A stretch of DNA of 64,000 bases from Natronoglycomyces albus (lineage in GTDB: Bacteria > Actinomycetota > Actinomycetes > Mycobacteriales > Micromonosporaceae). The position numbers were made by a program, and so were the translations under genes. The DNA is taken from contig NZ_CP070496.1 of assembly GCF_016925535.1 (NCBI RefSeq), positions 2,914,001 to 2,978,000 on the forward strand, written 5' to 3'. Positions 29,913 to 36,350 of the stretch are shown here, one piece after another (positions within the stretch are counted from its first letter, which is position 1; each line of letters opens with the position of its first letter). Below the pieces are notes generated by a model. It had not been told where the DNA came from. It made no database searches and saw only the letters and a list, made by a program, of their open reading frames with translations.

Positions 29913-30025
29913 ACGTACGAGCCAGACTTCGCGATCTATCCGGTGCTAACGGCGATAAGGCGTACGGTCTCTAGGGTCGCCAAGATGATCTGTCGATGCC
30001 CTGAGCAGACGTCTCCCCAATGAGC

Positions 30026-30060
30026 TGTTGCTCGTGTCAGCCGAGCCGACACGAGCAACA
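30026..30060. terminator. Bidirectional terminator between GNAT and ridA-like genes
   Basis: A perfect 13-bp stem (TGTTGCTCGTGTC at 30026-30038 with its complement at 30048-30060) and a 9-base loop lies between convergent genes. Confidence 0.8.
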
Positions 30061-30075
30061 AGAGTGGCCACGTCC

Positions 30076-32494: not shown

Positions 32495-32842
32495 TTAGGC
32501 GTCTGCCGAGCCCTCTCGGTAGATCTTGGCGCGAGCAATCTTGCCGTCTACCACGTCAAAGACAGCGATGAGGGCGGCTGTGCGTTCGTTGCCCTCGTGC
32601 GTCCAAGTCTCGGTCATTTCAGCTGCGACCGTGTCGCCTCCGTCAATGATGCGGTGGAGGCGCAAGTGCGGGGTGAGGCCTTCCATCGCGGTGGTGAAGA
32701 ACTCGCGCAGCTGCCCTTCGGGGACGGTGTATTGCCCGGTCACCCAGGTGGCGTCCGGGGTGAAGTCGACCAGTAGCGCCTCGGGATCTGCGGCGTTGAA
32801 CGATGCGACGTGGCGGTGGATAAGTTCCTCGGATGTGCTCAT
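32495..32842 (-). CDS. SnoaL/NTF2-like protein
   Basis: This 115-residue protein has the small cone-shaped SnoaL/NTF2 fold pattern: HRHVASFNAADPEALLVDFT, then the W-containing FTPDATWVTGQYTVPEG, and a C-terminal FDVVDGKIARAKIYRE. Members are isomerases, hydratases or binding proteins; the substrate is not predictable. It faces the DHFR-like gene. Confidence 0.83.
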   Translation of the reverse strand: MSTSEELIHRHVASFNAADPEALLVDFTPDATWVTGQYTVPEGQLREFFTTAMEGLTPHLRLHRIIDGGDTVAAEMTETWTHEGNERTAALIAVFDVVDGKIARAKIYREGSADA

Positions 32843-32959
32843 GCGCCCATTATGTCAACGAATGCTCAGTCCGTCATATGGTTATTTTCCAGTGAGCACC
32901 GGCAACCCTCGTTCCATAGCCGATGGCCCGGCCGGGTTTGTTGCACAGCGTGCCGGCCG

Positions 32960-33778
32960 TCATTCCCAGGTCGCGCTGTCCGGATCTACTCCGTTAGCCT
33001 GCGCGTTTGCACGGATCACGTCATGAAACCACAGAGTGAGGCCCGGCCCCAACGCGTCGTAGTACTCCGTGTAGCCGGGCTCCTCGGCGAACATGTGCCC
33101 CAGGCACACCTGCATCGCGTGGGTGCAGTCGAAGTGGCGCGACATCATGGCCCGGTGTCGTTCGGCCAGCGCGTTCGCTTCCGCCGAACCGGGCGAGACA
33201 TTGGCGCGCTTCGCCTCAACCAGATCGGCGTTGAACGCGTGGGACTCGGTGGCGATGATCTTCCAGTCCTCACGTGTCCGGTTGGCGGCGCGCTCGGCAT
33301 ACTGTTTCCACTGGGCGTTGCCGCCCCAGCGTTCCTCGGCCTGGTCCGCCCAGGCCGGGTCCCAGTCGTTGCCGAAGATCTCGACCTGTTCCTCGGGGCT
33401 CAGGCGGATGCCGGTGGCGGAAGCTTCCATCATGCGGTCGACCGCGCCGACCATGTCTTGCAAACGGGAGATGCGCTCGACCAGCTGCGAACGTTGTTTC
33501 CGCAGCTGGTCTTGCACGTCCGCGTTCGGGTCGTCTAGGACGTGTTTGATGTCGGCGAGGATGAAGCCCAGCTCGCGGTAGACCAGCACCCGGTGGATTC
33601 GGGCGACGTCCTCATCGGAGTACACGCGATACCCCGCCCACGTGCGGTTACTCGGACGCACCAACCCGATGTCGTCCCAGTGGTGCAAGGTTCGGACGCT
33701 GACGCCGACGAGCGCCGCCAACCGGCCAACCGTGAGCCGCTCAGTATCGGTCTCTGGCTGAAAGGGTTCCCGCCTCAT
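32960..33778 (-). CDS. MerR-family regulator with TipAS drug-sensor domain
   Basis: This protein of about 272 residues has an N-terminal MerR winged helix (LTVGRLAALVGVSVRTLHHW at about 15-34, GYRVYSDEDVARI), a coiled-coil dimer helix (about 80-120) and a TipAS domain of about 130 residues (EQVEIFGNDWDPAW..., AERHRAMMSRHFDCTHAMQV). TipA-type proteins bind peptide antibiotics and activate promoters with an over-long spacer. Just such a promoter lies upstream of the VOC gene at 34.3 kb. The VOC stop and this ATG are 55 bases apart in the same direction, so the pair probably forms an autoregulated operon. Confidence 0.9.
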   Translation of the reverse strand: MRREPFQPETDTERLTVGRLAALVGVSVRTLHHWDDIGLVRPSNRTWAGYRVYSDEDVARIHRVLVYRELGFILADIKHVLDDPNADVQDQLRKQRSQLVERISRLQDMVGAVDRMMEASATGIRLSPEEQVEIFGNDWDPAWADQAEERWGGNAQWKQYAERAANRTREDWKIIATESHAFNADLVEAKRANVSPGSAEANALAERHRAMMSRHFDCTHAMQVCLGHMFAEEPGYTEYYDALGPGLTLWFHDVIRANAQANGVDPDSATWE

Positions 33779-33833
33779 CACCCGAATGTATCGCACCGGC
33801 GGGAAAACGACACGGTTCACAGCAGCTCGGCAC

Positions 33834-34322
33834 TCACGTTCCAGGCAGGTCGATTCCCAGGTCGAGCAGGTTCTCCGCTTGCGGGCCTGCGGTGGGAAGC
33901 GGCAGCGCGGCCGTCATCACGACGCGCGCGCCTTCGGGTGTGGTGACGGTCAGCTCGACGGCGTTCCATGGCTTCTCGTCGGGGCCACTAGTGCATCCGG
34001 GTACGAGTTCTTCGCAGCGGGTGGCTATCTGGTCCAACTGGTTGTGGACGCAGGCAAAGCTCACGGTGGACGACGGCGTCTCTTCGACCTGGTCGGCGGG
34101 CACCAGCAGGACGTCCTGGAACGCCCAGCGGCGCAGATGGGTCAGCTGGGGGGCCGAGAACAGGTCGCCGAAGCCCAGCCCGCGGCACCAGAAGTCCTTC
34201 GACTGCTCGATATCGACGCTGGGGATGATCACGAACATCGGCATCAGGTAGAGCTCCCGGTAGATGTCGGGAGCGACCGCATTAGGGCCCGGGTCGGGGA
34301 CCGGAGATGGGTAATGTTTCAT
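33834..34322 (-). CDS. VOC/glyoxalase-bleomycin-resistance-fold protein, candidate TipAS target
   Basis: The frame encodes 162 residues; the VOC domain begins at an internal MPMFVIIPSVDIEQSKDFW (about residue 27) and continues through FQDVLLVPADQVEE to VTTPEGARVVMTA. VOC proteins include antibiotic-binding and dioxygenase types. An ATG at 34322 lies six bases from a -10 element, so a leaderless transcript could start there. The internal ATG near 34244, preceded by GGGAG, is the alternative and gives a family-typical N-terminus. The TipAS-MerR gene lies downstream. Confidence 0.82.
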   Translation of the reverse strand: MKHYPSPVPDPGPNAVAPDIYRELYLMPMFVIIPSVDIEQSKDFWCRGLGFGDLFSAPQLTHLRRWAFQDVLLVPADQVEETPSSTVSFACVHNQLDQIATRCEELVPGCTSGPDEKPWNAVELTVTTPEGARVVMTAALPLPTAGPQAENLLDLGIDLPGT

Positions 34323-34328
34323 GCTGAC

Positions 34329-34359
34329 AGTCTTGGGCCTCCCGTTACGTGAGGGTCAA
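34329..34359 (-). promoter_or_regulatory. MerR-type promoter with 19-bp spacer and palindromic operator
   Basis: On the minus strand TTGACC (34359-34354) and AAGACT (34334-34329) are separated by exactly 19 bases. The spacer region carries the near-perfect palindrome CCTCACGTAACGGGAGG (34354-34338, one mismatch). Over-long spacers with a central palindrome are the hallmark of MerR-family activation. The TipAS-MerR gene is the second gene downstream. Confidence 0.75.
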
Positions 34360-34439
34360 GACTGAATCGACCACATGAGACATAGCCCTCACCCGCACGG
34401 AGGCCGGGGCACTGAGGGCTCGAATAGCGGCGGGCGAGC

Positions 34440-34916
34440 TCAGTCGAGAGCGAGCTTCATGCCCACGTGGGAGGCGACAAAGCCCAGGCTTTCGTAAAAA
34501 CGTCGCGCGTCTGGGCGCTGTGCGTCGGTGGTGAGCTGGACCAGCTTCGCACCCCTCTCCCGGCCATATTCGATGGCCCAGTGAAAAATGGCGGTGCCCA
34601 GGCCAGTGCCTCGCTCCGAACGAGCCACCCGCACCGCCTCGATCTGGAGGCGCAGCGCCGCCGCACGCGAGAGTCCGGGGATCAGGGTCAGCTGCATCGT
34701 GGCGACGACCTCTCCGTCTTCGTTTCGCACGGTCGCGAGGAACTGGGCCGCGTCGGCGTCGATGGCGGCAAAGGCTGCACGGTACGGGCTCAGGTCGTCA
34801 GACTCGCGCCCCGCGCCGAGCACATCGTCGCGCAGTAGGGCCACGATCGTCGGCACGTCATCTTCGCGTGCCCGCGTGACGGAAAAGGTGCGGTCTGCCA
34901 GCTTCAGTTCGTTCAC
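34440..34916 (-). CDS. GNAT-family N-acetyltransferase
   Basis: This 158-residue protein has the GNAT core: GEVVATMQLTLIPGLSR, IEAVRVARSERGTGLGTAIF (V-box and RGxGxG acetyl-CoA loop, about 92-111), AIEYGRERGAKLVQLTTD and DARRFYESLGFVAS. It starts at GTG (34916). The substrate is unknown. Confidence 0.87.
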   Translation of the reverse strand: MNELKLADRTFSVTRAREDDVPTIVALLRDDVLGAGRESDDLSPYRAAFAAIDADAAQFLATVRNEDGEVVATMQLTLIPGLSRAAALRLQIEAVRVARSERGTGLGTAIFHWAIEYGRERGAKLVQLTTDAQRPDARRFYESLGFVASHVGMKLALD

Positions 34917-34954
34917 ATCGGCGATTCTGCCAGCGTCTCTTGGCCCCAGTTAAT

Positions 34955-35791
34955 CTAGATCGCTCGAAGGAGACGTGCCGACCATGCATTAAGGCGCTGG
35001 CGTAGCAGTCGGGCCGTGATCTGGGGTCGTCCGATGCCAACATAGTTGGCCGCCCACGCCTCGACTGCGGGGTCGGCCTGCGCGGCCGCCTGCCGGTCCC
35101 ACAGTTCAAGGTCCTTGACCGGCCCGCAGATGCGCTCGTACTCGGCTCGAAAGGACTCGGCCGCCGCGACGGAGCCAAGCAACACGAGGTCTTGCCGAAA
35201 CCAAGCGAGGTCAACGGCTCGCGGCGCGTGGCGCGCGCCCGACCAGTCGACAACGCCCGTCAGCTTCCTCGCCTGCCAGAGTGTGTTTCCAATCCAGAGA
35301 TCGTAGTGCGTCAGGACGCGTTCACTTGTGTCGAGGCGATCCCACTCGGCCTGGGCTGCCTGAGCGATCGGGCTGTCTCCGGGCGGGACTCGGGCGGGGG
35401 CTAGTCGAAGCCCAGATCCATCGAGTGCGTGTATGCGGGCGAGCATACGGGCCAGTGGAGCAGCCATGGCTTCTGGCGGAAGCTGGGGGTGCGGTGTTGA
35501 TCCGGGGACACGCGTGGTGAGGACGACCGGCGAGGCCGCGCCAGCGACCGCGACGAGATGTGGAACGGCATCGCCCAAGGGTTCCAGGCGTTCTAGGATG
35601 CCGACCTCGTGCGTTGCTGCTGTGTCCTCTGGGGGAAAGACGCGGGCCACGTACTCGTCGACTCCATCGGAGACCAGGAACGTCCGAGCATGCTGTCCGC
35701 CCGCGAGCGAGTGGACCACCCGCAAGGGACGCCCTATCTGCGCCGATAGTTCGGCGAGGGACTCTTCAATATGTTCGCTGTTCAGAGCCAT
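34955..35791 (-). CDS. Aminoglycoside-phosphotransferase-family kinase
   Basis: This protein of about 278 residues has an APH-like fold: GGQHARTFLVSDGVDEYVAR (N-lobe), LARMLARIHALDG, the catalytic loop VLTHYDLWIGNTLW with the HxDxxxxN pattern (about 165-178) and GVVDWSGARHAPRAVDLAW with the metal Asp. It resembles the group that includes antibiotic, choline and fructosamine kinases; the substrate is unknown. The start is ATG 35791, with an alternative at 35803. It is intact, unlike the related gene at 27.3 kb. Confidence 0.84.
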   Translation of the reverse strand: MALNSEHIEESLAELSAQIGRPLRVVHSLAGGQHARTFLVSDGVDEYVARVFPPEDTAATHEVGILERLEPLGDAVPHLVAVAGAASPVVLTTRVPGSTPHPQLPPEAMAAPLARMLARIHALDGSGLRLAPARVPPGDSPIAQAAQAEWDRLDTSERVLTHYDLWIGNTLWQARKLTGVVDWSGARHAPRAVDLAWFRQDLVLLGSVAAAESFRAEYERICGPVKDLELWDRQAAAQADPAVEAWAANYVGIGRPQITARLLRQRLNAWSARLLRAI

Positions 35792-35810
35792 ATCACTCAG
35801 CAAGGCCAGG

Positions 35811-36350
35811 TCAGGCCGTAGCTATCCAGTAGCGGAGCCTGCCATGGCGTTCGTCTTCGAGCGCTCCTCCGTTGGCCTCGATAGTGCGGCGCGACGCGAT
35901 GTTGTCGTCCGAGCACGTCACCAGGACTTCTTCGATACCTAGGCCGGCGGCGTAGGCCAGGGAGGCGGCGAGGATCGCGGTGGCATGGCCCTTGCCGCGC
36001 TCACCGGGGCGCACCGAGTAGCCGATGTGGCCGCCCATCTCCAGCAGGAAGCCGTTGAGTTCGTGACGAATCGATGTGCGGCCAATCCAGCGGTCACCTT
36101 CGACCCACCACAGGGCCGAATGCGGAACCATGCTGGAGGACTCCGGTATCTCGGAGCGGTCGGAAAGCAGGTCGGCCACCAGCATCGTGAAACCGTCCTC
36201 AGTGGCCAGCAGGTCGCGAGTGTAGTCGATATTGCGAGAACTCCACGCCCCCATCAACTGGTCAGCCTCTTCCCCAGCAGCGGCAAAGTCGTCCCAGGAC
36301 GAAAGGAAGGCAGCTTGATATGTCACGTCGGGGTCGGTCAGTGTTGGCAT
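35811..36350 (-). CDS. GNAT-family N-acetyltransferase
   Basis: This 179-residue protein has the GNAT pattern ALWWVEGDRWIGRTSIRHEL, GGHIGYSVRPGERGKGHATA (acetyl-CoA loop RxxGxA-like, about 106-125) and VLVTCSDDNIASRRTIEANG. It resembles uncharacterised acetyltransferases of actinobacteria and firmicutes. It lies directly upstream of the kinase gene (19-base gap, same strand), so the two are probably co-transcribed. Confidence 0.85.
   Translation of the reverse strand: MPTLTDPDVTYQAAFLSSWDDFAAAGEEADQLMGAWSSRNIDYTRDLLATEDGFTMLVADLLSDRSEIPESSSMVPHSALWWVEGDRWIGRTSIRHELNGFLLEMGGHIGYSVRPGERGKGHATAILAASLAYAAGLGIEEVLVTCSDDNIASRRTIEANGGALEDERHGRLRYWIATA

Follow-up and report, generated by a model that had tools for sequence, protein, structure and literature searches.

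A conserved VOC-TipAS operon with a MerR-type promoter and a predicted leaderless start in Natronoglycomyces albus

Promoters served by MerR-type regulators have spacers of 19-20 bp, which are distorted by the action of the regulator, as outlined in a review (PMC9909328). For the TipA class, a structural study describes that drug binding frees an autoinhibited DNA-binding domain, that a cysteine makes the covalent link to thiopeptides and that the regulators are subject to autoregulation (PMC7762955). We were interested in how an operon of Natronoglycomyces albus, consisting of a gene for a VOC-fold protein and a gene for a MerR regulator with a TipAS domain, compares with these systems. It lies in a window of 64,000 nucleotides, by which the whole stretch of DNA analysed is meant. 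No paper on a leaderless VOC-TipAS arrangement was found in the open-access literature searched, which did yield the TipA-class structure paper (PMC7762955).

Promoter and operator in the window

The -35 and -10 elements of the original prediction, TTGACC and AAGACT exactly 19 bases apart around a near-perfect palindrome, can be read directly from the minus strand (34359-34329), as can the six bases separating the -10 element from an ATG (Table 1). This is the layout of a MerR-type promoter, with a palindrome in a 19-20 bp spacer between -35 and -10; the -10 element is without its usual first T. In the palindrome, CCTCACGTAACGGGAGG, seven of eight positions pair around the centre. Within the 64 kb, the sole further match to CCTCACGTAACGGGAGG at up to three mismatches was its own reverse complement, and the search of the whole 4.01 Mb genome that had been suggested with the prediction left it as a single copy, neither the palindrome pattern (up to one mismatch) nor the -35 element plus palindrome (up to three mismatches) being found a second time. 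The general pattern of TTGAC, 19-bp spacer, NANNNT, 6 or 7 bases and ATG occurs ten times genome-wide and four times in a reversed control, so that spacing alone is weak evidence. Judged by eye, the palindrome is present at this site only among the ten, and it is what sets the promoter at 34322-34359 apart from the other matches.

Table 1. Positions of the features of the operon and its control region within the window
Feature	Position	Strand	Basis or remark
VOC-fold protein, 162 aa, first gene	33834..34322	minus	ORF; predicted structure; profile match
MerR regulator with TipAS domain, second gene	32960..33778	minus	ATG start assumed
Cys225 codon (ATG numbering)	33104..33106	minus	aligns to TipA-S chain position 105
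-35 element TTGACC	34359-34354	minus	read directly from sequence
Spacer, 19 bp	34353-34335	minus	holds near-palindrome
Predicted MerR operator CCTCACGTAACGGGAGG	34338-34354	minus	nearly all inside 19-bp spacer
-10 element AAGACT (NANNNT)	34334-34329	minus	read directly from sequence
GTCAGC, six bases from -10 to ATG	34328-34323	minus	
VOC start codon ATG, probable transcription start (leaderless)	34322-34320	minus	predicted from sequence
37-bp inverted repeat enclosing operator	34328-34364		15/18 pairs

The enclosing 37-bp inverted repeat ties for best among all 37-mers of the window, and because the operator is embedded in it, the plus strand of 34328-34364 reads TTGGGC-19-AAGACT too, with no obvious gene on that side. 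Its outer arms were rejected as part of the operator, as they are not visible in the sequences of relatives. An equally strong 37-bp repeat at 30025-30061 (15 of 18 pairs), containing TTGCTCGTGT...ACACGAGCAA, is probably a transcription terminator. Upstream of the operon, genes for a GNAT protein, an APH-like kinase and another GNAT protein stand in a row (34440-36350, minus strand). A SnoaL-like gene (32495-32842, minus strand) has a promoter-like ATGACG-17-CATAAT at 32842-32877 that ends six bases before its ATG, and it may therefore be leaderless too; as a third member of the operon the gene was dropped, since in a set of 39 other VOC loci it was not seen within reach at any.

The two proteins

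Pfam and NCBIfam gave no family hit for the 162-aa ORF at 0.001, and Pfam Glyoxalase stayed below its threshold (16.8 bits against a cut-off of 20.6), so that the family libraries alone failed to place the protein in the VOC superfamily; its predicted structure settled this in favour of the original assignment. An AlphaFold2 model built from 31 sequences (pLDDT 88.0, pTM 0.83) found 274 Foldseek matches at E of at most 0.001; binding proteins for zorbamycin and bleomycin ranked high among them. VIA-align gave Z scores of 13.7 for the Tn5 bleomycin resistance protein, 13.3 for E. coli glyoxalase I (GloA), 12.7 for TioX and 11.8 for TnmS3, and 301 of 996 aligned chains reached a Z of at least 8. 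By this model the first gene product is a true VOC fold of paired beta-alpha-beta-beta-beta modules. At the level of sequence profiles, TnmS3-type chains were among the top matches (E 1.1e-4 to 1.9e-4), the best solved chain being that of an integron cassette protein (2e-5). Across the 31 aligned proteins H62, R64, R65, Q69, D70 and W119 are invariant and C91 and C103 nearly so. H5 and E122, which we take to be the first and last metal ligands of GloA, fall on F30 and V135 according to the aligned end ranges to 1f9z, which places two of the four ligand positions; by eye, neither holds His or Glu in the VOC alignment.

For the second gene product, Pfam matched TipAS (109.4 bits, 1.9e-31) and MerR_1 (57.8 bits, 1.2e-15), both above cut-off, which bears out its earlier reading as a MerR protein with a TipAS domain; with a MerR HTH and a C-terminal TipAS domain it has the architecture of the TipA class. 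An in-frame GTG at 33820 lies ahead of the assumed ATG. The closest solved proteins are SkgA (E 1.5e-30) and TipA. At the thiopeptide-attachment position, chain position 105 in TipA-S (2mbz) and presumably C214 of TipAL, the regulator keeps a cysteine: query Cys239, or Cys225 when counted from the ATG, is aligned there. The same holds for 37 of the 38 VOC-linked TipAS proteins with coverage, the exception (L100) having Ala; 45 loci had been given, and the seven without coverage include L032 and L107, in which the TipAS reading frame is shortened. Among loci without VOC linkage, 53 were given and 47 had coverage, and the cysteine was present in six (L050, L051, L055, L076, L077 and L097). VOC linkage and attachment cysteine go together, though this may in part reflect the history of the clade.

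The original prediction had seen in the two genes a drug-sensing and drug-binding unit, to which the retained cysteine and the closeness of the VOC protein to drug-binding VOC proteins lend support. As the fold also serves metalloenzymes, drug binding by the VOC protein is something we infer: most likely it binds and sequesters the same compound as the regulator or a related one.

Conservation of the promoter and its distance to the start codon

VOC relatives were sought by protein and not by promoter, in overlapping sets that include the genome itself: named genome contigs (1 locus), 296 phylum genomes (matches at 1e-5 in 7), 61 relatives (6) and 354 family genomes (matches at 1e-20 in 43), with locus L100 added from the TipAS gene sample. 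The resulting 52 rows represent 51 distinct places (L115 is the place of L017); the loci are related and not independent, are spread over several families of the phylum, and in one case (L005 and L023) encode identical VOC proteins. The promoter test required a -35 element with at least five of six matches to TTGACC, a spacer of exactly 19, a -10 element NANNNT and an in-frame start 5-9 bases on. It was passed by 46 of the 51 loci, all with TTGACC or TTGACT as -35 element and with gaps of only 6, 7 or 8 bases between -10 and start, and 37 distinct 19-mer spacers were seen across these loci; in a shuffled control (100 upstream bases) 15 of 23,500 trials passed. All 40 VOC loci with an adjacent TipAS gene on the same strand passed, as did six of the eleven without one (L011, L017, L034, L106, L109 and L114); those that failed were L012, L110, L111, L112 and L113, the last two being partial matches.

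A few of these loci deserve separate mention. In another genus, at L115:5055-8561, the 19-bp spacer of a VOC relative holds a palindrome different from this one, CTCCAGTTACTGGAG; no TipAS match was detected in that genome, and about 3 kb away, on the other strand, is a MerR-like gene in which two HTH-like parts can be made out by eye. Actinocatenispora comari (Micromonosporaceae) and genome G355, from the same family as the genome analysed, encode the same VOC protein. A fusion of VOC and TipAS genes, suspected from long open frames in L097 and L100, was discarded upon finding no VOC match or different frames.

In the 31 VOC proteins a conserved segment, M..Y..SPVP.PGPDAVAPE..RGIYGMP, opens at the promoter-proximal ATG and precedes the VOC domain. 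Its M1 and Y25 are invariant, and P7, A15 and P18 almost are; in L017 and L011 this part is shorter or diverges. With the register between promoter and ATG kept and the N-terminus conserved from that ATG onwards, the layout is most naturally read as giving a leaderless mRNA. For S. lividans, one study gives a mean distance of 6.3 nt from -10 to transcription start and a share of 17% leaderless transcripts (PMC8079986), by which the +1 position would be expected on the ATG or within a base or two. The VOC-operon transcript thus appears to begin at its first codon, and the earlier suggestion to this effect gains comparative support from the gap of 6-8 bases in 46 of 51 loci.

A gene-blind search of 396 phylum genomes with the operator pattern TTGACCCTSACGNNNCGTNAGG gave 41 sites in 39 genomes; 30 of these loci were examined, four of them VOC loci. 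Near the operator of the 26 non-VOC loci, a relative of the window's regulator was found in 25, a few of which (L045, L057, L058 and L069) are related by the HTH part only. Together with the 40 TipAS-adjacent VOC loci, this result argues from comparative sequence for the MerR promoter originally predicted. An ORF of at least 150 aa started 5-9 bases after the -10 element in 17 of the 26, and in 16 of them at 6-7. In L057 and L058 the same operator stands, leaderless with a GTG, before a MerR protein fused to a methyltransferase-like domain (by eye).

A TipAS sample taken independently of the operator comprised 44 matches listed in 33 of 60 genomes, of which 32 loci were examined (including L001, L002 and L075) and 27 tested, five having no HTH ORF. 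The leaderless test was passed by 13 of the 27, two of the 27 (L001 and L100) being the second genes of VOC operons; L081 and L095 have the promoter with a leader, and 12 show no such promoter, counting L103, where the apparent leader site lies inside the gene. The shuffled control passed in 6 of 13,500 trials. The other TipAS gene of the genome itself (L002) showed no such promoter under the same criteria. From these predicted starts, seen in 13 of 27 operator-independent and 17 of 26 operator loci, the leaderless layout is common in TipA-class regulators and not peculiar to the VOC operon.

Proposed mechanism, alternatives and known systems

Starting from the observed layout, conservation, fold and cysteine, we consider it likely that this is a self-regulated, ligand-switched and leaderless two-gene operon of the TipA class, with the VOC protein as drug-binding partner; binding, activation, 5' end, ligand and VOC role are given as we infer them. 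The TipAS-MerR protein would bind the palindrome between -35 and -10, and the promoter, its 19-bp spacer being over-long for RNA polymerase, would be nearly silent without ligand. Cys225 would catch the ligand, probably an electrophilic antibiotic (a thiopeptide, for instance), and the ligand-bound regulator would take a form that distorts the spacer. The first transcribed base would then be the A of the VOC ATG, so that both proteins would be made from a leaderless mRNA, and the VOC protein would sequester the same or a related compound.

The main rival concerns the VOC protein, which might instead be an enzyme of the glyoxalase, thiol transferase or dioxygenase type that detoxifies the compound. 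We hold this to be possible, at clearly lower probability, given that the structural matches include GloA (Z 13.3) and FosA/FosX alongside bleomycin-binding proteins and that H62, R64, R65, Q69, D70 and W119 are invariant, with C91 and C103 nearly so; against it, two of the four positions that we take as metal ligands of GloA fall on F30 and V135 instead of His or Glu. That an upstream promoter mainly reads the operon, with translation from an internal Met (VOC residue 27 or 29) and the MerR site merely modulating, is unlikely. The GNAT, APH and GNAT genes on the operon's strand and, by eye, an SD-like GGGAG a few bases before the internal ATGs would suit such an arrangement, but VOC residues 1-26 align across relatives with M1, P7, A15, P18 and Y25 invariant or nearly so and are for this reason coding. 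A hairpin does lie between the upstream genes and the operon but is no stronger than shuffles (z -1.13); no terminator was found there, and one before the operon had no support beyond chance.

Least probable, and in our view very unlikely, is that the operator answers to another MerR regulator of the cell and that the adjacent TipAS protein has its site of action elsewhere. The promoter is kept in six of the 11 VOC loci that have no TipAS gene alongside, and in some genomes (L057, L058) the same operator is adjoined by MerR proteins with other effector domains, but all 40 TipAS-adjacent VOC loci carry it, the genome's sole operator copy sits at the VOC-TipAS operon, and its other TipAS gene (L002) is without such a promoter.

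The self-regulated TipA-class operon proposed above would thus be a conserved and clearly bounded drug-sensor operon, combining a cysteine-bearing TipAS regulator with a candidate drug-binding VOC partner, and predicted leaderless starts recur in its regulator class. A more speculative extension, to which we give a small chance only, is that selection has made the leaderless start a design rule in TipA-class drug-sensor operons of Actinomycetota, and that VOC protein and TipAS work as a pair on one class of drugs, the VOC protein as a non-covalent sink and TipAS as a covalent sensor. If true, the operator pinned to the start codon would have sensor and VOC protein translated by 70S ribosomes, and such translation would continue while a ribosome-targeting antibiotic impairs normal initiation.

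Among known systems, the VOC-TipAS operon belongs with the TipA class, as a conserved variant and no new kind. It resembles TipA (TipAL/TipAS) of Streptomyces lividans in the MerR HTH plus TipAS domain, the proposed self-regulation and the cysteine at the attachment position, but has the VOC gene first and a start codon six bases after the -10 element; at the tipA-like loci L076 and L077 the leaderless arrangement was not seen under the criteria of the TipAS sample. SkgA and other cysteine-free TipA-class regulators are similar to the window's regulator over the whole length, yet SkgA and the MerR-like regulator 3qao have no cysteine at the aligned position. A MerR-type regulator gene read from a leaderless mRNA, as predicted here, is described for CvkR (PMC9938897), which according to that account is a cyanobacterial CRISPR-transposon repressor with another operator. 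With the tiancimycin-binding TnmS3 and with Ble, ZbmA and TioX the VOC protein has its fold in common (Z 11.8-13.7), at an identity of at most 21%, and differs from them by its conserved N-terminal segment of about 25 residues and by its coupling to a TipAS regulator.
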